Origin: Streptosporangium album
Lineage (GTDB): Bacteria; Actinomycetota; Actinomycetes; Streptosporangiales; Streptosporangiaceae
Length of the DNA: 64,000 bases
NCBI RefSeq assembly: GCF_014203795.1
Contig: NZ_JACHJU010000001.1
Coordinates: 248,001-312,000, forward strand
Direction: 5' to 3'
The notes under the pieces were generated by a model that saw only the letters and a program-made list of their open reading frames with translations, did not search any database and was not told the origin of the DNA. Positions within the stretch are counted from its first letter, which is position 1; every line of letters starts with the position of its first letter. The position numbers and the translations under genes are program-made. Below are positions 40,072 to 49,717 of the stretch, one piece after another.

Positions 40072-40164
40072 CGCCGTTGGCCAGGAACACCAGACCTTGG
40101 ATAGGTAAAGTTTGTTGTGGCCGGTAACAATCCAGAAACGCAGACTTAACCGACCGCGCTCCGC

Positions 40165-40169
40165 GCGAT
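40165..40169. repeat. Left target-site duplication GCGAT
   Basis: Identical to 49713-49717 and directly abutting the TGTGACT left end. Five bases is the duplication length made by Tn7-like elements. Confidence 0.9.
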
Positions 40170-40194
40170 TGTGACTCGCCGAGATAGTTGTCAC
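40170..40194 (+). repeat. Left terminal inverted repeat with TnsB-like site
   Basis: Begins TGTGACTCGCC and ends GATAGTTGTCAC. A second related motif, GGTTGCTGTCACC at 40203-40215, overlaps the tniQ stop codon, so the left end is very compact. Confidence 0.88.
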
Positions 40195-40210
40195 TTCGCC
40201 ACGGTTGCTG

Positions 40211-41440
40211 TCACCAACCTGGGGCCGAGTTGAGCCGTGGCCCATGACGGAGGCCGCTCCAGGGTTTGCGCATAGCGACTGCGAGGGCCCTTGATCGTCT
40301 GGGGTTGCTGCGGATCGCGTTTGTGGCTCGCCCGTTGGTTCGGTCAGCTTGAATCAGCAGGGGGGCCAGGGCCCTTTGAAGGCCGCCCGAGGTCGGTTTC
40401 TTGAGGACCTTCCAGGCGATGCTCAAGATCGCGGCGCAGGTGCGGGCGTCTGCTGGGGCGGCGGCCCAGGGCTGTGAGACTCGGAACTGGTTTTGATGAT
40501 GGTGGGTTTGACGAGTCCGGCTCATGTGCAGTCGCAGGCGTGCTTCTTCATCGATGGCTGCGGCCAGGGTAGGTGAGGCGCAGAGCCCTTCGGAAGCAGG
40601 CCATGAGAGCAGGACCAGGGCCGCGATGATGCCGAGATCCGTGAAGTACTGGTGGTTCATGATGGGAGTTCCTGCAACCCGGAGCGGATCTCCCGGGGGC
40701 CGGTTCATGTTGGTGATCAGGCTGTTTTGAAGTCGGAGAAGCTCCGGGACTTCATCGGCTGGCTGATGGTCGGGTGAGGGGTCGGCGAGCTGAACTCCGC
40801 AGAACGCTCTACGGCCTCCTGAGGGTTTTTGCCCGGTGAGGTGCCGACACTGGGTGGGATGGGGACGCGGATCGCTGAGGCTGCCGACCGCTGAACGATC
40901 CATCGGGGCCGCGTGGATTTCATGGTTGCTGCCCGCGGGGCAGGCGTGGCGGAGCAGACGCTGGTGGATGGGACAGGCGAAGACCATCGGGAGATACCAA
41001 TGTCTTCGCCAGGGTCCGCCATGTTCGTTCTGCAAGGGGCTGCCGTCACCGGCCAGGCATTGCGGGCAGTATCGGGGTTCGCTGTGGAACAACCATCGGT
41101 GGTGGAAGGACAACTGGGCGAGAGGGGTCGGCTCTGGCCGTATCTCCGGAGGGCCGTGCTGCAGGGTGTTGAAGATGCCGAGTTGGCCAACGCAGAGGTT
41201 CGCGGCTTCCTGTGGAGTGAGGCGGGTTGCCGTGGCGAAGGGCTGGAGATGGTCCTTCAGGTCGATCACCAGCTGGGTCGAGAGAACTCTGGGAGGACGG
41301 CGATGGGAGGCGTCGACTAGCCCGGTGAGGAAAGCGAGATAGCCGGGACTGATGTTCAGCCGGTGAGCCAACCTGAGCATGAATCCGGTGAGAGATTCGT
41401 CTGGCAGCGGATCCAGGCTTCTGGGCAGAGGCTCTGGCAT
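40211..41440 (-). CDS. tniQ: TniQ-family transposition protein
   Basis: About 409 residues from ATG 41440 (MPEPLPRSLDPLPDESLTGF). The TniQ start PLPDESLTGFMLRLAHRLNI is clear, and a zinc-binding region follows with YCPQCLAGDG, then VFACPIHQRLL and HACPAG. TniQ proteins (relatives of TnsD) take part in target choice with the TnsC ATPase. Starting four bases after the stop of the tnsC tail shows the original operon order tnsC-tniQ before the IS entered. A longer in-frame start at 41491 would overlap that tail. No second TnsD/TniQ is present. Confidence 0.87.
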   Translation of the reverse strand: MPEPLPRSLDPLPDESLTGFMLRLAHRLNISPGYLAFLTGLVDASHRRPPRVLSTQLVIDLKDHLQPFATATRLTPQEAANLCVGQLGIFNTLQHGPPEIRPEPTPLAQLSFHHRWLFHSEPRYCPQCLAGDGSPLQNEHGGPWRRHWYLPMVFACPIHQRLLRHACPAGSNHEIHAAPMDRSAVGSLSDPRPHPTQCRHLTGQKPSGGRRAFCGVQLADPSPDHQPADEVPELLRLQNSLITNMNRPPGDPLRVAGTPIMNHQYFTDLGIIAALVLLSWPASEGLCASPTLAAAIDEEARLRLHMSRTRQTHHHQNQFRVSQPWAAAPADARTCAAILSIAWKVLKKPTSGGLQRALAPLLIQADRTNGRATNAIRSNPRRSRALAVAMRKPWSGLRHGPRLNSAPGW

Positions 41441-41444
41441 CGGT

Positions 41445-41654
41445 TCAGCTCGCGGTCTCATTCGCGGCGGGTCCGCGATCATCGAAGACACGGTTGCGGC
41501 CGGGTGGGCGTTGTGTCGTCCTGCTCGGCTTGTCGGCTGGGATGTTGGGGGTCTCTCCGGCGGCGGGATCGCGGCTGAGGTCGTTGCCTAAATCGATGTC
41601 AATGGTATCGAGCAAGTCGATGTCGAGGAGGCCGCGTCCAGGGAGGTGGTGTTT
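41445..41654 (-). pseudogene. Displaced 3' end of tnsC
   Basis: An open stretch of 69 codons runs from the IS256 border to a TGA four bases before tniQ: KHHLPGRGLLDIDLLDTIDI, then DLGNDLSRDPAAGETPNIPA and GRNRVFDDRGPAANETAS. It has no start of its own. The sequence has the look of a TniB/TnsC C-terminal tail and lies exactly where that tail belongs. The truncated tnsC ends in a similar GRELLDV segment, so the junction is not a simple clean insertion. Confidence 0.65.
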
Positions 41655-42993
41655 GAGAAGGCCACCCGTAATCGGTGACTATTAGGAAGCAATCGCCTCA
41701 ATAGTCACTTTAGCATCGTTTGTCTTATTTTTAGAATCGGGTGAATCGGTGTTCTTGCGACACTCGGCGAGGACCTCCAGCCCCATATAGCGGCGCTGTT
41801 CGGTCCACTCGTCGTTCTGCTCGGCCAGTACCGCGCCGACGAGCCGGACGATCGAGTCGCGGTTGGGGAAGATACCGACGACGTCGGTCCGCCTCCTGAT
41901 CTCCTTGTTCAGGCGCTCCTGAGGGTTGTTGCTCCACGTCTGACGCCAGACGGCTTTGGGGAAGGCGGCGAAGGCCAAGATGTCCTCGCGGGCCTCGTCC
42001 AGATGCTCGGCCGCCTTCGGGTACTTGGCCTCCAGTACCTGCACGACATGACGATGCTGGGCATAGACCGACTCGGCGTCAGGCTGCTCGAAGATGGTGC
42101 GCAGCATGGTGGCCACCCATGGCTGGGCCGACTTCGGAACGCGCGTGATCAAGTTTCGCGCGTAGTGGGTTCGACACCTCTGCCAGGATGCGCCCGGCAA
42201 AGTGGAGGCGATCGCGTCGCGCAGCCCGGCGTGGCAGTCGGAGGTCACCATCAGCACGCCGGACAGGCCGCGGGCGACCAGGCCGCGCAGGAACGCCGGC
42301 CAACCCGCGCCGTCCTCGCTGGAGACGACGTCCAGGCCGAGGATCTCGCGCAGGCCGTCGGCGTTGACACCGGTGGCGACCAGGGCGTGCACGGTCACCG
42401 TCCGGCCGCCTTCGCGGACCTTCTGCGTGAGGGCATCGATCCAGACGAAGGTGTACGGGCCGGCGTCCAGCGGCCGGGACCGGAACTGCTCCACCATGCC
42501 GTCGAGTTCGGCGGCCATCGCCGAGACCTGCGACTTCGACAACGAGGTGATGCCCATCGCCTCGGCCAGCTTCTCCACCCGCCGCGTCGACACCCCGAGC
42601 AGGTAGGAAGTCGCCACCACCGAGGTGAGCGCCCGCTCGGCCCGGCGTCGCTTGTCCAGCAGGAAGTCCGGGAAGTAGGAGCCCTGTCGTAGCCGGGGCA
42701 CGGCCAGTTCGATGCTCCCGGCCCGGGTGTCCCACGGCCGCGTACGGTAGCCGTTGCGGGTGTTGACCCGCTCGCTGCTGATCTCGCCGTAGCCGGCGCC
42801 GCACAGCTGCTCGACCTCGGCATCCATCATCCGCTGCGCGAACTCCCGGATCATCGTGCGCAGCAGGTCCGGACTCGCCGCGGCCAGGGTGTCTTCCAAG
42901 TACTCCCCGGCAGCGGGCACAATGTCATTGACGGCCACTTCGTCCCCTTCGTGTTGATATGAGCGAATCGAAGGATTACGGAGTGGCCGTCTC
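41655..42993. mobile_element. IS256-family insertion sequence inside the Tn7-like element
   Basis: Ends are imperfect inverted repeats of about 20 bp: GAGAAGGCCACCCGTAATC at 41655-41673 and, read inward from the right, GAGACGGCCACTCCGTAATC (42974-42993), one indel apart. It encodes one transposase. No matching 8-9 bp duplication is seen (TGGTGTTT left, TTGTCACA right), which suggests rearrangement after or during insertion. Confidence 0.85.
41682..42938 (-). CDS. IS256-family (mutator-type) transposase
   Basis: A protein of 418 residues, intact. The DDE residues are Asp in YTFVWIDALTQKVREGGR, Asp in GVLMVTSDCHAGLRDAI and Glu in NNPQERLNKEIRRRTDVVG, with the mutator signature WQRCRTHYARNL. 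Start GTG 42938 with GAAGGGGA upstream. It moves the IS by a copy-out mechanism typical of the family. Same strand as the tns genes. Confidence 0.95.
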   Translation of the reverse strand: MAVNDIVPAAGEYLEDTLAAASPDLLRTMIREFAQRMMDAEVEQLCGAGYGEISSERVNTRNGYRTRPWDTRAGSIELAVPRLRQGSYFPDFLLDKRRRAERALTSVVATSYLLGVSTRRVEKLAEAMGITSLSKSQVSAMAAELDGMVEQFRSRPLDAGPYTFVWIDALTQKVREGGRTVTVHALVATGVNADGLREILGLDVVSSEDGAGWPAFLRGLVARGLSGVLMVTSDCHAGLRDAIASTLPGASWQRCRTHYARNLITRVPKSAQPWVATMLRTIFEQPDAESVYAQHRHVVQVLEAKYPKAAEHLDEAREDILAFAAFPKAVWRQTWSNNPQERLNKEIRRRTDVVGIFPNRDSIVRLVGAVLAEQNDEWTEQRRYMGLEVLAECRKNTDSPDSKNKTNDAKVTIEAIAS

Positions 42994-43028
42994 TTGTCAC
43001 ATGGATCTCACCCGTGCCAACGCCAGGC

Positions 43029-44171
43029 CTAGATCACCCGCACACCATCTCCCTGGACGTGAACGTCGAGGAGTTCCCGGCCGGTGCCGATGGCCGCGGT
43101 GCACCCATCCTCGATGAGCCGTTCCAGCAGGCCGACAATCCCGGCGGTTCGGGCGAAGAGGTATTCGGGCATCTTGCCGGTGGTGAGCATGCTGGGTGGG
43201 GCGCGAAAGAGCCGCAACTGGTCTTCGATGCCGGCCAGGTGCGCCAGCCAGGCGTTGATGGTCTCGGGGGTGCTGTAGTCGAACGGGTCGAGATCGATCA
43301 AGTCGAACCGGCGCTGGGTCTGGGTGGCGGCTTCGTCGTTGCCGTTCTTCTTCGTGTGCCGCCGGCCGGTAAAGACCCACTGGCCGGTGCGCAGATCGTG
43401 ACGGCCTTCACCCAGCAGGCCGGAGGTGCGGATCCCGACCCCGATCAAGATCAGGGTGACTTGCATGCTCATCAGACTCCGTAGCAGGTCCAGGGTGTCT
43501 TGGTCGGCTTCGCGGTGCATCTTGAGCCGGGTGATGTCATCGATGATCAAGACGCGGGTGCCGTGGTCACGGAGCGAATCTCGGACTGAGCGGATTAGCT
43601 GAGGCAGGGTCGCCCGATAGCCCAGCGGGTGGCCATAGAAACTCAAGATCGCCTCGCAGAGGCTCTTGGGTGTCGCGGTGACCGGGGTCTGGACGTAGGC
43701 GACCGGTGCCCAAAGATCTCGGGTCCCGAGGATGGCGTCCGGGTTGAGCTGCTGGTGTAGGAGCCGCCAGAAGTCCTCGAACGCCGCCGCTGCCTCGCAG
43801 ACTGTCTCGGTCTTGCCCTGGTAGCCACCACCGTTGATCATCAGCCCGGCGCGGGTGGTGGGCTTGGTTTTCAGCGCGTTGCTCTGGATCCGTGAGCGCA
43901 TGATGGTGGTGACCTTCAGGCTCATCGGAGTTTCCTGCAGTCGCAGGTTCGCATGAGTGGCTGCCCGGTGCAGATCGTGTAGAGCCTGACCTCGTGGTCC
44001 TTGCGCCCGATGGGCGGCCAGGTCCAGACGTGGTGCAGGAACGAAGCTTCCCCGGGTGAGACGAAAGTGCTGCCAGCCTTGAATGGTTTCCCGGTCGATC
44101 GGCGCGCCGGGCAGCGTGAACGACGCCGGGCGACCCTCCTGTGCTGCGGGATCGTCCACCACTTCGTGCAT
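43029..44171 (-). CDS. tnsC: TnsC/TniB-like AAA+ ATPase, C-terminus altered by the IS
   Basis: A protein of 380 residues. It has an N-terminal helical region (DLHRAATHANLRLQETPM), Walker A in MINGGGYQGKTETV, Walker B in TRVLIIDDITRL, a sensor region in LILIGVGIRTSGLLGEG, and RRFDLIDLDPFDY. This ATPase links the transposase to the target chosen by TniQ. The last about ten residues (HVQGDGVRVI) look unrelated to the family tail, which lies beyond the IS256 element. ATG follows the tnsB stop by 11 bases with AGAGG adjoining. Activity may be impaired. Confidence 0.85.
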   Translation of the reverse strand: MHEVVDDPAAQEGRPASFTLPGAPIDRETIQGWQHFRLTRGSFVPAPRLDLAAHRAQGPRGQALHDLHRAATHANLRLQETPMSLKVTTIMRSRIQSNALKTKPTTRAGLMINGGGYQGKTETVCEAAAAFEDFWRLLHQQLNPDAILGTRDLWAPVAYVQTPVTATPKSLCEAILSFYGHPLGYRATLPQLIRSVRDSLRDHGTRVLIIDDITRLKMHREADQDTLDLLRSLMSMQVTLILIGVGIRTSGLLGEGRHDLRTGQWVFTGRRHTKKNGNDEAATQTQRRFDLIDLDPFDYSTPETINAWLAHLAGIEDQLRLFRAPPSMLTTGKMPEYLFARTAGIVGLLERLIEDGCTAAIGTGRELLDVHVQGDGVRVI

Positions 44172-44182
44172 CCTCTTTCTGC

Positions 44183-46408
44183 TCAGTCGTCGCCTGATGT
44201 CGCTGCCTGTGGTGGGTCTTCCGGGTCGGGGAGGGCGAACAGATTGCCGCGCCGGTAAGCGGCGCCCAACGGTGGCGGCACTCGCGGTTGTCCTGGGCCT
44301 TGAGCTTGTTCGCGCCGGTGCCGGCGTTCGGCATCCAGCGCTCGGACCGCCTGAATTGGACGAGGCGCCTGCAGGTCTTGGGCCGGGTGGTGCCTGTCAG
44401 CGGGCCGGTCCTCGGCTGCGGACTCGGCTCTGTTCTCCTCCCGGGAATGCCCGATCCGTTCAGTCTTGCTCAGCTGCGTCGGCCACTGCTCGACCGGGAT
44501 CCGGGCGCTGAGCAGTTCGAGGAGCAATGGCAGCAGTTCGGCGTCGCTGCGCGGTCGCAGCCCGGCCTTGCGAACGACGGTCAGGAGTTCCTCGACGCGC
44601 TGGTCCCCGAACGCCGGAACCTGCCCTTCGGGCGGCAGCCCCGTCCAGCGCAGCGGGTGCCACTCATGGGTGAGGGGATCTTGGAAGAACACGGTGCGGC
44701 GGTCACGCGGCTCGCGGTGGATCCGCCAGCGGCCTTTGTGCCGCCCGCCGCGTGAGGACAACTCACTCCGATAGGGATCCAGAGCATCACCGTCATACCA
44801 AAGCCCGGCGATCTTCACCCCGCGGTCCCCGTGGATGCCGACATGATGCGCGGGAAGCAGCTGGTAGTAGAGCTCCGGCGCGGGAATCTGCAGAGCGAAC
44901 CCGGCCTGCTGGAACGATGCCGCGAACAGTGAATTGGGGCTGTGGTCACCGCCCGGATCCCAAGCCGGTGCGTACTCGCCGAGCCTGCGGTTCTGCCAGA
45001 GCGCCACGATCCACGTTGCGATCAGGTGTTCCATCTCCGCGACCGTCAACACCGCGTCACCCTCAGGATCGGCGCCCCGATCGGCGATGTCGATGCCGCT
45101 GTAGCCGGGGAGCCGCTCGAACAGCAGCGACCGGATCGCGCCGAAAACGCGTTCGACTGCGTGCTTGTCGGTCGGCCGCAGCACCCGGGCGGGCAGGATG
45201 TTGCAACCGAGCACCCGCTGGACCTCGACCAGGTGGTGGTTCTTATAGACCGACCCGTGATCGGTGGTAACCGTCTCCGGGGAGAAGAACGGCAGACCAG
45301 CGACCTTATGACCGGCGAACTCGGCGACCACCGCGGCCGGCAGGCCCGGGTAAGGCCACTCCAGCTCTGGCCCCCACTCGGGGCGCATCGGCAGCGGCAA
45401 CATCACATCGCGCAGCACCATCGCGACGTCGACCGAGGTATCGGAGACCAGCGTCAGCCGGAACGCGCAGAGCGAATGCGTATAAACATCCAACGCGAGT
45501 GTGAGATGAACCGTGGTCGGGTCCGCGAACACGCTCTCGCGAACCATCACCGGCAGCACCGTGGTGTCGAGCGCGACGACCTGGCCCGGCCGGTCGATCA
45601 GCACATGGCCGCCCGGCGTCGGCAGCTGAGCGCTGCGGACATACCGCTGACGGCCGCCGCCAGAGCCGAACCACTCCCGCCAGACCCGCCGCAGCGTGTT
45701 GTAGGACGGGACGACAACCTCCGGCCCGAACATCTCCCGCACGTACTGGTGGATCATGGTTTCGCGGCTGCGCATGCTGATCCGCGACCGGTGCAACGTC
45801 TCGGCTCGAACCGCCAAGATCGCCTCACGGACCTGTTCGCCAACGCTCGGGTGCCCGCCCGACTGCCGCAACCACCGCTCATCAGCGCAGCCGATCAGAC
45901 CCGATCGGCGACGGCCCTGCTCCCACCGAATCAAGGTCCGATAGCCGACCTTCGCCAGCCCAAGCAGGCCGGCCTCTTGCCGATCCAACACCGCCAGCTC
46001 CGCGACCTTGGCCAGCCGCCGCTCAGATAACGTCGTGCGGTCCGGGTCATAACACGGTTTGGGCTCCCCAGGGCCTGGCCGGCCCGGATCTCCGCTGCGG
46101 AACCCAGTGGCCACCTCCAGCAGGTGTGCCATCCGCAGCTGGGCCAGGCGGAGTTTGTCCGGCGGCAAGTCCCCGGCCGCTGGCGGTTGTCGACCCCGTG
46201 CCGCCCCCGAGGCCTCGGTGCGCGAGGAAGGACGGCAGCTGGGATGGTTGGCCAGGAACGCAAAACTGACCCGTTGCCGGGTCCCATCCGCGGCAACGAG
46301 CTGGACTCGCCCCAGATGCGGTTCGCGAAGCTCAACTTTCCACGGCTCGCCGTCCAGGATCAGCTCGACACCAGCCGAAAGATCCAACACTTCCGCCAGT
46401 CCGGTCAC
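44183..46408 (-). CDS. tnsB: TnsB-like DDE transposase
   Basis: A protein of 741 residues. An N-terminal helix-turn-helix region (EVLDLSAGVELILDGE to about 240) binds ends, then the Mu/TnsB integrase core: first Asp in GQVVALDTTVLPV, second Asp in ETVTTDHGSVYKNHH, Glu in PTDKHAVERVFGAIRSLL. The beta-barrel domain follows, and a charged Pro/Arg-rich tail (after about 640) may contact TnsC. GTG start overlaps the tnsA stop by four bases. TnsB joins 3' ends to the target. Confidence 0.93.
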   Translation of the reverse strand: MTGLAEVLDLSAGVELILDGEPWKVELREPHLGRVQLVAADGTRQRVSFAFLANHPSCRPSSRTEASGAARGRQPPAAGDLPPDKLRLAQLRMAHLLEVATGFRSGDPGRPGPGEPKPCYDPDRTTLSERRLAKVAELAVLDRQEAGLLGLAKVGYRTLIRWEQGRRRSGLIGCADERWLRQSGGHPSVGEQVREAILAVRAETLHRSRISMRSRETMIHQYVREMFGPEVVVPSYNTLRRVWREWFGSGGGRQRYVRSAQLPTPGGHVLIDRPGQVVALDTTVLPVMVRESVFADPTTVHLTLALDVYTHSLCAFRLTLVSDTSVDVAMVLRDVMLPLPMRPEWGPELEWPYPGLPAAVVAEFAGHKVAGLPFFSPETVTTDHGSVYKNHHLVEVQRVLGCNILPARVLRPTDKHAVERVFGAIRSLLFERLPGYSGIDIADRGADPEGDAVLTVAEMEHLIATWIVALWQNRRLGEYAPAWDPGGDHSPNSLFAASFQQAGFALQIPAPELYYQLLPAHHVGIHGDRGVKIAGLWYDGDALDPYRSELSSRGGRHKGRWRIHREPRDRRTVFFQDPLTHEWHPLRWTGLPPEGQVPAFGDQRVEELLTVVRKAGLRPRSDAELLPLLLELLSARIPVEQWPTQLSKTERIGHSREENRAESAAEDRPADRHHPAQDLQAPRPIQAVRALDAERRHRREQAQGPGQPRVPPPLGAAYRRGNLFALPDPEDPPQAATSGDD

Positions 46409-47277
46409 CGCAGGTCCCCCTGAAGGACCACGGTCGACCGATCAGTCAGCGGCTCTGCCAGATCGATGCCCAGCCGACGGTGCCAGAGAAGATGTAGCAG
46501 CTGGGCGCGGGCCACCGCCGGAACATCGCTGCGTTCGGCCAGTTCGCCGAAAGTCGCTCCGCCGTCGGCTGCCGCTTCCAACAGGCCAGGCCGTAGCCCC
46601 AGCGGGTCACTCAACGGACGGCGCTGCGAGGACAACGTTCCCAACGTCGTCTCCACATGGGCGCGCCACCCAGCGACAACCACGTAGTGCCATCCGGCCG
46701 CCAACGCAGCCTCCGCAGCCGCAGCGAAGGAGATCCGGGTCTGCTCATCAAGGAGTGCACGCGGTCGCACATCGATCAACCAGACCCCACGGCGCGTGAC
46801 CGCCAGGAAGTCAGGTATGTGTTTCCGCCATCCCGATGACGTCGCGAACTTCAACCTCACCGGCTGCGCAAGGACATCGACCACCGCGGCGGCGAAGTCC
46901 AACACCATCAGCAGCCGGGCCTCTTCCAGGCTCTCGAACCCATGATGCCGTCCCGTCGACACCAGATACTGCAACCCTGGCCGGTGCCGTTGGCTCCGTC
47001 TCCATGTGAACGTCCGTACCGAACCAAACCACGAGACCGGTGCCCCCGCCAGGTCCCGCACCGGACACGTCACCTCACCGTCGGCCGTCTTCCACGTCAC
47101 CGTCCAGCGGCTGGTCCAGCCCTCGCTCAGCTCCAACATCGGCTTCGACGCCTCGCACGAGAACGGCACCAGCAGCTCGTTCCAAGCACAGCGATGGGAC
47201 CACAGCAGCCCTCCGGCCCCCGTAGCCGGCACCGCACCTCGCGCGACTCGGTAATCCTCCGGCACCTCACCAGGCAA
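46405..47277 (-). CDS. tnsA: TnsA-like endonuclease subunit
   Basis: A protein of 290 residues. The TnsA nuclease core is seen as HHGFESLEEARLLMVLDF (Glu), KHIPDFLAVTRRGVWLIDVR (Asp), followed by a winged C-terminal region (GATFGELAERSDVP). TnsA cuts the 5' ends so that movement is cut-and-paste. The usual catalytic Lys of the ExK/DxK motif is Arg here (IDVRPR), which may reduce cutting. Start uncertain: TTG 47277 or GTG 47265; the protein before residue 45 is poorly supported. Confidence 0.85.
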   Translation of the reverse strand: MPGEVPEDYRVARGAVPATGAGGLLWSHRCAWNELLVPFSCEASKPMLELSEGWTSRWTVTWKTADGEVTCPVRDLAGAPVSWFGSVRTFTWRRSQRHRPGLQYLVSTGRHHGFESLEEARLLMVLDFAAAVVDVLAQPVRLKFATSSGWRKHIPDFLAVTRRGVWLIDVRPRALLDEQTRISFAAAAEAALAAGWHYVVVAGWRAHVETTLGTLSSQRRPLSDPLGLRPGLLEAAADGGATFGELAERSDVPAVARAQLLHLLWHRRLGIDLAEPLTDRSTVVLQGDLR

Positions 47278-47321
47278 ACATAGAAGAACTACTTAGAGCA
47301 GCGAATCCATCACACAAACTG

Positions 47322-47336
47322 GTGACAACTCCGTTG
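47322..47336. promoter_or_regulatory. TnsB-like motif just upstream of tnsA
   Basis: GTGACAACTCCGTTG shares its first nine bases with the right-end motif GTGACAACTATTCTG. It may be an inner right-end site now separated from the others by the IS21-like unit, or a site for autoregulation of the tns operon. Confidence 0.45.
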
Positions 47337-47482
47337 TGGTTCTGTTCGTGTGAAGGAGGAACGTTTGTCGATGAAACTCGGCAACACCCCTGATCACAGC
47401 GATGTCGTGTCGATGAGTTCTGGCAACACCCTGGCCCTGGCGATGAGAGCATCAAAGTGCTGCTCGCCGCAAAGGGGACCCG

Positions 47483-47665
47483 ATGCTGTCGCAGTCCAAG
47501 ACAGAGCTTTACGCGGCGATCCGACGCGATATGCGAGGTGGGATGTCGATCCGCGCCGTGATGCGCTAGCACTCTGTGTCCTACCTCACCGTGACCAAGG
47601 CTTCCGCGTCGGCCTGGCCCGAACTGCGTAAAAACCGACCCCGCGGCCGACGCGGCTGGCACGGA
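47483..47665 (+). pseudogene. IstA (IS21-family) transposase, N-terminal remnant
   Basis: MLSQSKTELYAAIRRDMRGG and MSIRAVMR read like the N-terminal helix-turn-helix of IS21 IstA proteins, then an in-frame TAG at 47567-47569, then HSVSYLTVTKASASAWPELR continues the motif. Only about 60 of the expected 400-500 residues remain. CAAAGGGG upstream of the ATG is a plausible ribosome site. Confidence 0.65.
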
Positions 47666-47788
47666 CCCGCTCAAAGGCCGAGCAGGCCAGCGCGGGACAA
47701 CAACGACGGGGAGGCCTTGGACGCGGCCCCCGAGGGCCCTCTCGTCGGGGACGTCGGGGGCCGCGTATGCTTATCGATCTTGCATCGG

Positions 47789-48652
47789 TCAGAAGCCAGG
47801 CGGCCGGGTCGCGGCCGGGCCTGGCACGACGTGCAGGATGATCACGCCGTCGTTGTAGGTTTTAGCCGACGCGACCGCCCAGCTGGGATCGATGCGGGAA
47901 GCTGGCACGTTCTCCTCGCTCTGGAAGCCTCGCTCTCCACTCCTCAGTGGCCAGTCGAGCTCGTAGGCCACCTTCAGGTCGTGTTCGCGCACGACGCGGG
48001 CCGCCTCGCCTGCGGATCGGCCCTGGAGCGTCACTCCGGCCAGCGCCTCGCCCGGCCAGCTCGCGTCGGCGGGGTAGGCGTATTTCTCGCCGGGCTTCGC
48101 CGGGTGGCCCAGGCGTAATTGCGCGGGCCCCTTGAGGTCGGCGGTGATGCGGAAGGCCGTCAGACATCCTTCGACGCGCTCGGCGCAGTCGGACACGGTG
48201 ACTGACGCCTGAGCACCGGAGCCGGCCTTGTCGAGGTCGACTCCGACGACGGGGGATCGCTGCTGCGGCGAGACGGGGATCAGCTTCACCGTGATGTTGT
48301 CCAGGCCGACCTTGCGGAAAGCCTTCTCCAGCTCGGCGGGGTCGGGATCGCCGTCGGTGATGTAGAAGGCGTACTCGTCGCCGTCGCGGTCGATCGTCAC
48401 GGCCTGACTGGCGTACACCTGCTCGGACGCCCTGAACAGGGACGGCCCGACGACCAGGGCTCCCGCCAGGACGGCGCTCGCGGCCACGCCGAGCAGGACG
48501 CGGCGAGGAGAGGGCATGCGTCGTCGCTGGGCCGGAGCCTGCTCCAGCAGGACGATCTCCGCCAGCAGCGCGTCCGCCTCAGCGGAGAACGCCCGGCCGG
48601 CCAGGTCCTCGTCCAGCACCTTTGCCCGGTTCTTGAGGATCTGATTGTTCAT
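47789..48652 (-). CDS. Membrane partner of the transposon-borne ECF sigma factor
   Basis: A protein of 287 residues. The N-terminal 50 are cytosolic (RAFSAEADALLAEIVLLEQA), one membrane segment lies at about 52-72 (VLLGVAASAVLAGALVVGPS), and an outer domain of about 210 residues has a single pair of cysteines (VSDCAERVEGCLTAF). It occupies the same position as the CU044_5270-like gene at 1.1-2.2 kb, and its ATG overlaps the sigma stop (ATGA). Probably a negative regulator or sensor of the sigma factor; not proven. Confidence 0.7.
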   Translation of the reverse strand: MNNQILKNRAKVLDEDLAGRAFSAEADALLAEIVLLEQAPAQRRRMPSPRRVLLGVAASAVLAGALVVGPSLFRASEQVYASQAVTIDRDGDEYAFYITDGDPDPAELEKAFRKVGLDNITVKLIPVSPQQRSPVVGVDLDKAGSGAQASVTVSDCAERVEGCLTAFRITADLKGPAQLRLGHPAKPGEKYAYPADASWPGEALAGVTLQGRSAGEAARVVREHDLKVAYELDWPLRSGERGFQSEENVPASRIDPSWAVASAKTYNDGVIILHVVPGPAATRPPGF

Positions 48653-49197
48653 CGTGACTCCTTCTCGACGAGAGGCCGCGTTTCGAGACAGGCCGATGGG
48701 CGGATCTGCTGCAGGGCCTTGGTGAAGCGCTTGCGGGCCCGGTGCAGGCGAGTGCGGGCGGCGGTTCGTGAGCAGCCCAGCACCTCGGCGATCTGTCCGG
48801 GGTCGAGATCCTCCCAGACGGCCAGGGTCAGCAGCTCGCGATCATCGTCCGAAAGCGTGTCCATGGCCTGGCCCACCTCGTCAGGCCCGCTCAGGGGGAA
48901 GGCCGGAGGGTAGAGCAGCTCGGTCTTGGCCGTGAGCTCGGCGTGCCGGGTGGCTCTGCGTCGCTCGCCACGACGGTGGTTGGCCAGGACCCGCCGGGCC
49001 ACGCCGTACAACCAGAGCCTGCCGGCCTCGCCGTGCGGGAGCTCATCCATCCGCCGCCAGGCGATCACATAGGTCTCAGCCACGACATCGGCCGCGTCCT
49101 CGGCGCAGGAACAGCGCCGCATGGCGTAACCGAGGATCTGCTCGTACGTTCGCCGGTACACGGCCTCGAACCGAGACCGGTTGTCTGTTTCATCCAC
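48649..49197 (-). CDS. ECF sigma factor carried by the transposon
   Basis: A protein of 182 residues. Region 2: FEAVYRRTYEQILGYAMRR, AEDAADVVAETYVIAWRRMD and LWLYGVARRVLANHRRGER. Region 4: LLTLAVWEDLDPGQIAEVLG and SRTAARTRLHRARKRFTKAL. GTG 49197 with GAGGA six bases upstream. Sigma factors are unusual transposon cargo; its promoter targets may lie in the element or in the host. It is similar in type to the factor at 2.2-2.8 kb but clearly not a recent copy. Confidence 0.92.
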   Translation of the reverse strand: MDETDNRSRFEAVYRRTYEQILGYAMRRCSCAEDAADVVAETYVIAWRRMDELPHGEAGRLWLYGVARRVLANHRRGERRRATRHAELTAKTELLYPPAFPLSGPDEVGQAMDTLSDDDRELLTLAVWEDLDPGQIAEVLGCSRTAARTRLHRARKRFTKALQQIRPSACLETRPLVEKESR

Positions 49198-49609
49198 GCG
49201 TCATCCTCGTTAGACCTTTCGAACGCTCAGGGGGTTTCAATCCCTACGTGTCCGCGAGCGACCGCAGAATTACAGGCCAATACGACTCACGCTCTGCCAC
49301 CACTTCATCACGAGCGGGTCAGAGCCCGAAAGGTCAGCAGCCGCGCGTACGCACCGTTACGGCGAGAAGAACATCGACGCGGACTGCGTTCATCTGAGGT
49401 GCTGAAGTGTGAACGAGGGCGGGGCTGTCCAGGCAGCCCGCCCTCACACACTCAGGGCAAAGGGGTCATGAGGCTGCGCCGAGGATCTCTGCACTGTTGC
49501 TGAATCTCATCGACATTCCCGGCCCCGTTGAGCCGCTGGCATTGCTCTAACTCGTGAACAAGCGTTGCTGCTTCTGATCGATGCAATCACCGTTGCGTAG
49601 AGCAACCCA
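49198..49609. other. Non-coding stretch of the transposon right arm
   Basis: About 410 bases between the sigma gene and the right-end motifs. It holds the sigma promoter region, a GC hairpin at 49415-49445, the inner IS21-like repeat (49494-49515) and an A+T-richer part after 49500. I see no credible gene. Confidence 0.6.
49415..49445. terminator. GC-rich hairpin in the right arm
   Basis: GAGGGCGGGGCTG pairs with CAGCCCGCCCTC with one bulged G and a 6-base loop. It may be the terminator of a lost gene of the IS21-like unit. Confidence 0.5.
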
Positions 49610-49650
49610 GTGACAACCATCCTGAGCATTCAGTGACAACTATTCTGGCT
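49610..49650. promoter_or_regulatory. Two TnsB-like motifs near the right end
   Basis: GTGACAACCATCCTGAGC at 49610 and GTGACAACTATTCTGGCT at 49633, 23 bases apart, in the same orientation as the terminal copy at 49688 (GTGTCAACTATCAAGG). Multiple spaced sites are a feature of Tn7-type ends. Confidence 0.7.
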
Positions 49651-49687
49651 CGCCTGCACCATCACCGCTGGTTGGCGGATCTACCAG

Positions 49688-49712
49688 GTGTCAACTATCA
49701 AGGAAAGTCACA
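49688..49712 (-). repeat. Right terminal inverted repeat
   Basis: Read inward it begins TGTGACTTTCC and ends GATAGTTGACAC, matching the left repeat at 20 of 25 positions. Confidence 0.88.
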
Positions 49713-49717
49713 GCGAT
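49713..49717. repeat. Right target-site duplication GCGAT
   Basis: Same five bases as 40165-40169, directly after the AGTCACA end of the element. Confidence 0.9.

Follow-up and report, generated by a model that had tools for sequence, protein, structure and literature searches.

How does a Tn7-like transposon with a single, short TniQ protein choose its insertion site? The question is raised by a 64,000-nucleotide stretch of the Streptosporangium album genome (GCF_014203795.1, contig NZ_JACHJU010000001.1, positions 248,001 to 312,000; the window), in which a Tn7-like element of 9543 bp spans 40170–49712, upstream of xylF. The element is genuinely Tn7-like and is broken in this genome, and comparison with related genomes gave good evidence for homing to promoter-associated sites. 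Judged from the sequences, this lineage probably homes to conserved promoter regions. The reading that we consider fairly likely is a cut-and-paste Tn7-like transposon that belongs to an actinobacterial lineage and homes to a fixed attachment site. The ends of the element and the proposed recognition region are as follows.

40107–40139, plus strand: proposed recognition region, a conserved block of 33 bp (AAAGTTTGTTGTGGCCGGTAACAATCCAGAAAC) upstream of xylF whose end is 30 nt from the tip
40165–40169, no strand: target duplication GCGAT on the TniQ side (sequence, relatives' duplications, Markov control)
40170–40215, plus strand: TniQ-side transposon end with the tip TGTGACT, facing xylF
49590–49712, minus strand: transposon end on the TnsA side; its TnsB-type repeats are 78 bp apart
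49713–49717, no strand: target duplication GCGAT on the TnsA side (sequence, relatives' duplications, Markov control)

The terminal arms (40170–40194 and 49688–49712) are complementary at 20 of 25 positions and are bordered by exact 5-bp GCGAT copies. None of 200 first-order Markov sequences built from the flanks of the element reached 20 of 25 beside an identical 5-mer; the top value, 19, occurred once. The TniQ-side end carries two adjacent TnsB-type repeats approximately 20 bp apart (by eye; the 20-bp spacing was scored in relatives). With TG...CA ends, several TnsB-type sites, and a 5-bp target duplication, the element has the architecture of the Tn7-like group. 

A TnsB-based scan yielded 37 actinobacterial loci. 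Of 26 relatives scanned for ends, six (L011, L013, L022, L030, L032, and L036) have ends of this type bordered by identical 5-bp copies, and an end profile added L009, with the duplication TTCGC. The duplication sequences of the relatives differ, and their end sequences are alike. L026 and L027 have ends but no matching duplication, and L006 shares 4 bp only. The candidate end pairs of L015 and L017 were rejected, since 16 of 26 matching positions is background. Profile matches 78 bp apart recurred on the TnsA side (window, L016, L020, L031, L035, and L036), and matches 20 bp apart on the TniQ side (L006, L009, L022, and L036); L022 has the 20-bp spacing at both ends, and L032 shows 42 bp at the TniQ side.

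The joined flanks matched 13 of the 16 same-genus genomes, our own included. In five of these 13, the 33-bp block is identical and is followed, always in the same orientation, by a TniQ-side end of the element's family, at distances of 30 nt (G000, the window genome), 30 nt (G006), 28 nt (G004), 29 nt (G012), and 30 nt (G001). The G006 insertion, 2.6 kb long, still has its two ends, each bordered by GCGAT; in the sister genome, G014, the alignment passes over the insertion point with a 4-bp overlap. Empty sites with a single GCGAT were found in G011, the sister of the window genome, and in G007, the sister of G004, while the sequence runs on with no end in G003, G009, and G008. Genome comparison thus revealed a recurrent attachment site used in a single orientation. 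tRNA genes were rejected as the target: neither the window nor any of 29 scanned relatives contains one. The xylF-type block was found in none of the loci L001–L040 within 12 mismatches of 36, which indicates that other TniQs use other sites.

These comparisons bear on several claims of an earlier note on this DNA. An empty site reading through one GCGAT had been anticipated, and G011 and G007 display it; the homologous elements end in the same type of sequence, as expected there. The site had been described as intergenic, which is correct for this genome, but in several relatives the point falls within the final codons of a gene for a TauE/SafE permease (shown by translation for L084 and G006 and judged by eye for the rest). 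In G006, this frame now stops within the transposon end. Target choice had been called unknown. Homing is now likely because the comparison shows a recurrent site, and the earlier description still holds for the molecular recognition.

A second site came from other genera, where G118 and G102 share, in their flanks, palindromic boxes that precede a Clp_N gene. We searched 250 genomes for this site; 133 matched, and 13 were read closely (nine candidates and four controls). The TniQ-side end lies 30–32 nt past the first palindromic box in eight of the nine candidates, which represent six genera (G118, G111, G102, G171, G152, G236, G009, and G018; 2–10 mismatches to the end pattern). The ninth, G227 (L181), was dropped from the count with 12 mismatches. 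All four controls were empty, with at least 13 mismatches in the best end match, and three of 2000 random 65-nt windows, drawn from a pool that includes true ends, had 10 mismatches or fewer. Matches covering most of each of TnsA, TnsB, TnsC, and TniQ were obtained in G111 only; in G118, TnsB was matched at residues 5–226 only, and TniQ changes frame. A third element, L013 of Streptomyces inusitatus, is inserted 24 bp away from a palindrome of 28 bp that precedes a helix–turn–helix (HTH) gene. This palindrome is conserved in Streptomyces, being present within four mismatches in 14 of 15 loci fetched by similarity; in none of the 15 did the best end match within 75 nt to the left or right have fewer than 11 mismatches.

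The core genes of the element all lie on the minus strand.

40211–41491, minus strand: tniQ, 426 aa, short form (PF06527 81 bits, cut-off 27; tree; AlphaFold2 (AF2) model)
41448–41630, minus strand: severed 3' tail of tnsC, 61 codons with the conserved motif RNxVFDDxG (matches TnsC C-termini of 18 relatives)
43029–44171, minus strand: truncated tnsC open reading frame (ORF), 380 aa (PF05621 and PF13401 above cut-off)
44183–46408, minus strand: tnsB, 741 aa, with D-D-E residues (aligned rows and PDB sequence matches)
46405–47277, minus strand: tnsA, 290 aa (NF033179 139 bits, cut-off 110)

TnsA is an endonuclease of the TnsA family according to NCBIfam NF033179, although PF08722 scored 25.9, just under its cut-off of 26.5; E and D are conserved in the aligned rows. 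At the position of the catalytic lysine of Tn7 TnsA, 34 of 35 aligned rows have R. TnsB stayed under the cut-off in both Pfam and NCBIfam (Pfam rve 17.1 bits, cut-off 32.6). It was identified as a TnsB DDE transposase because its PDB sequence matches are TnsB (E 5e-12) and D, D, and E occupy the aligned positions, with E in 38 of 40 rows, a count that includes the window protein twice. Two further, distant TnsB-like genes with TnsA-like neighbors occur elsewhere in the genome (L002 and L003, 33% and 29% identical), and the 15 other same-genus genomes contain no TnsB relative at E 1e-80. The TnsC ORF has its Walker motifs and keeps its family assignment, but it is not an intact AAA+ ATPase: the C-terminal tail was severed by an IS256-family insertion, the codons below 43065 fall inside the end of that insertion, and its 380 aa compare with 411–436 aa in 21 of 30 other aligned rows.

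The fourth protein scored above the cut-off of PF06527, which makes it a target selector with a TniQ/TnsD domain. In the TniQ tree, it grouped with G118 (0.868) and then with L013, L026, L027, and both L010 proteins (0.821), a short clade with open frames of 404–487 aa. Many other relatives have TniQs of approximately 590–690 aa, and shorter ones also occur outside the clade (L004, 387; L006, 526; L032, 494; L029, 479 aa); some TniQ starts were overcalled. An earlier tree omitted two false fragments (L009 and L014), and the later tree omitted rows covering 180 window positions or fewer. The best AF2 model (predicted local distance difference test (pLDDT) 83.2, predicted TM-score (pTM) 0.84; the other four average 59–64) has helices up to residue 406 and low confidence from residue 413; the window TniQ is short, with no C-terminal extension predicted. 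The top PDB match of the model was the TnsD–TnsC–DNA complex (E 4.3e-4, TM 0.33), followed by the TniQ of a type I-B CRISPR-associated transposon (CAST; E 0.016). The G111 TniQ (L119 9048–10796, 582 aa) differs in having a C-terminal DUF6193 match at residues 457–562, perhaps a fused site reader. 

Pfam and NCBIfam scans of eight ORFs yielded no other selector, TnsE, or Cas gene, and 40170–49712 contains no direct repeats of at least 22 nt within 200 bp, our test for a CRISPR array. A CAST, which has Cas effector genes and a CRISPR array inside the element, is not what we found. Much of the anatomy drawn in the earlier note stands. The coordinates of the ends and the duplication hold, with the 20/25 arms, the Markov control, and same-type ends in relatives behind them. 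The TnsA–TnsB–TnsC–TniQ order on one strand and the Tn7-like identity were borne out by family matches, PDB matches, and D-D-E residues, and TniQ is indeed the single selector among the ORFs scanned. The end is as compact as described, the TniQ stop codon lying 41 bp from the tip. The word "complete" has to be withdrawn, as tnsC is split by the IS256-family insertion and an IS21-derived unit sits at the TnsA side; both had been overlooked.

Our confidence in homing is slightly reduced by the fact that, at both sites, the carriers are mostly remnants or lone ends, and several observations weigh against it. At the xylF site, the four other carriers are remnants with no Tns gene matched, except for a TniQ fragment in G001: the 2.6 kb of G006 has no matched Tns gene, G004 and G012 have an end only, and G001 has an end and the TniQ fragment. 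As a consequence, three duplications are unreadable, and the 1–2 nt differences in spacing could be indels. G013 and G002 lack an end, yet their sequence past the block is diverged, which leaves "empty" unproven for them. At the Clp_N site, six carriers (G102, G171, G152, G236, G009, and G018) are lone ends with no Tns or TniQ matched in the stretch fetched, the end matches of G111 and G009 are reached only at 10 mismatches, and only 13 of the 133 matching genomes were read closely. Moreover, the candidates were chosen because their match ran past the junction, and G227 failed. 

The decay of four of the five xylF-site carriers would also suit a single early insertion, made in the ancestor that most of the genus shares, followed by precise losses or by recombination with empty-site relatives, and no homing. 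All five carriers belong to one genus and have homologous left ends; a survey in which 92 of 297 genomes matched and 30 loci were fetched gave 17 other-genus loci at the xylF site, all empty and without an end. A common insertion is probable for G001 and G012, which are 93.5% identical across 356 bp including flank. A host tree based on three genes (rpoB, acn, and xylF; data partly missing) nevertheless speaks against a common origin. It united G000/G011, G004/G007, G006/G014, and (G001,G012)/G013 with 100% support, and the three sister pairs differ, the partners G011, G007, and G014 running through the insertion point without an element. Parsimony rooted on G008/G009 needed four changes, four gains in all, versus one gain and five losses; the deep nodes of the tree are weak (47–51). 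(G003, G008, and G010 each have two rpoB genes above the cut-off.) The same kind of end also occurs at the second site in six genera, and on balance we consider one ancestral insertion unlikely. Even less probable, in our judgment, is a passive hot spot, where an accessible promoter or gene-end region merely tolerates insertion and TniQ provides no sequence specificity. Both recurrent sites are promoter regions, and rather different TniQs are found at one Clp_N site (that of G118, from the short clade, and that of G111, with 582 aa and DUF6193), as such a hot spot would allow. It would hardly keep the position within 2 nt and the orientation constant in five and eight carriers, 28–32 nt from a conserved block.

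Homing of the element to a fixed attachment site therefore remains the reading we prefer, and the mechanism we propose for it starts from the observed anatomy, from a site that recurs with constant orientation and spacing, and from the empty sister sites. TniQ, or TniQ with a host protein, would mark the conserved block before xylF; we infer that TniQ is the reader of this site. TniQ at or near the block would then load TnsC, a step suggested by analogy with Tn7, and TnsC would recruit TnsA–TnsB. These would insert the TniQ-side end approximately 30 bp from the block, leaving the 5-bp duplication. A more specific version, which we hold only tentatively, is that a minimal TniQ lacking a DNA-binding extension finds its site via the operator of a host transcription factor, recognizing either palindromic DNA or the bound host regulator. 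If true, a host regulator would be the missing selector at xylF, the Clp_N gene, and the HTH gene alike. A palindrome rule for all elements failed, which counts against the homing reading as a whole: the palindrome score was clear for only three of 16 flanks (L013, L115, and L121; 0 of 60 shuffles), while L026 gave 5 of 60 shuffles and the window 41 of 60.

Two nested insertions account for the remaining length of the element.

41622–41630, no strand: 9-bp duplication GTCGAGGAG of the IS256-family insertion
41631–43064, minus strand: IS256-family insertion sequence, 1434 bp, inside tnsC
41682–42938: IS256-family transposase (NF033543 332 bits, cut-off 150)
43065–43073, no strand: second copy of GTCGAGGAG
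47331–47336, no strand: 6-bp duplication CCGTTG of the IS21-derived unit
47337–49589, no strand: IS21-derived unit without transposase, 2253 bp
47789–48652, minus strand: 287-aa protein in the IS21-derived unit
48649–49197, minus strand: extracytoplasmic function (ECF) sigma factor in the IS21-derived unit
49590–49595, no strand: second copy of CCGTTG

The segment 41631–43064 belongs to the IS256 family by its mutator-type transposase, inverted repeats, and 9-bp duplication; target duplications in this family are 8–9 bp long. Ends guessed at first had no duplication and were replaced by the longer element. The window copy of the transposon is probably stalled, or immobile, because this insertion severed the conserved TnsC tail. 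The unit at 47337–49589 has neither istA nor istB intact, as an IS21 family member would. We call it IS21-derived because it shares its ends with an istA/istB-bearing element of 4.9 kb (L149); 1.4-kb versions with different cargo (L145 and L146) have the same ends. A second copy stands alone on G006:C3 (16719–18962, 92.4% identical), flanked by a 6-bp duplication of its own (TGCCTC); on the same contig, a 222-bp mini-element represents the join without the unit. The ECF sigma factor is thus ruled out as native cargo: 47337–49589 is a separate IS21-derived passenger that carries it. Without both insertions, the element measures 5841 bp, and the native Tn7-like element is one of approximately 5.84 kb without cargo. 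Between the window and G006, the ECF proteins are 99.5% identical and the 287-aa neighbors 78.7%. Across this family (window, G006:C3, L145, L146, and L149), the ends are constant and the passengers vary: the ECF sigma pair, a DoxX-like gene by a CRISPR-like repeat array, and a TetR with an FAD monooxygenase beside istA/istB (the array and the passengers of L145, L146, and L149 were named by eye).

Mini-elements consisting of little beyond two Tn7-like ends were seen twice, with 222 bp (G006:C3 32451–32672, in L114; no duplication shown) and 236 bp (L120 2463–2698, G108; duplication GTTCG). At L026 451–456, two tips face each other 4 bp apart, as if two elements adjoin. In L015, L020, and L029, Streptomyces loci with two TniQ genes, the TnsA-side flank shares amine-oxidase and nitronate-monooxygenase genes; with the ends partly mapped, this flank is a possible further attachment site.

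Tn7 itself (TnsABCD, with attTn7 at the end of glmS) shares with the window element TnsA, TnsB, TnsC, and a TniQ-domain protein. Also common to both are TG...CA ends with several TnsB-type sites and a 5-bp duplication, and a single orientation at the border of a conserved gene, with the insertion point a little away from the conserved DNA. In contrast, the window TniQ, with 426 aa, has no long C-terminal extension, and TnsE was not found. The tnsA-side end of Tn7 faces glmS, whereas here the TniQ-side end faces the site and the tnsABC genes read towards that end. The sites differ as well, being the promoter regions of xylF and the Clp_N gene instead of the glmS end; neither is named in the titles or abstract openings of the open-licence literature searched.

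Among described lineages, the Clade 2 Tn7-like transposons in the main text of Benler et al. (2021, PMC8649781) share the actinobacterial host and the core gene content with the window element. According to that text, this Actinobacteria-dominated clade had no experimentally characterized member as of 2021; no xyl or TauE site is named in it (term counts 0). A passage in Faure et al. (2023, PMC10293859) describes the short TniQ core as a helical domain, a zinc finger, and a helical domain, and a small TniQ that lacks a large C-terminal extension as a hallmark of elements relying on an additional selector. The CASTs and Tn6022 with TnsF, as presented there, have the short TniQ in common with our element. 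They differ from it in that no Cas or partner selector appeared among its eight scanned ORFs, yet insertion recurs at one site. A small-TniQ lineage with no partner found, two recurrent sites, empty-site controls, and constant geometry makes the targeting rule directly testable; if homing works, it could allow site-specific insertion in actinomycetes.

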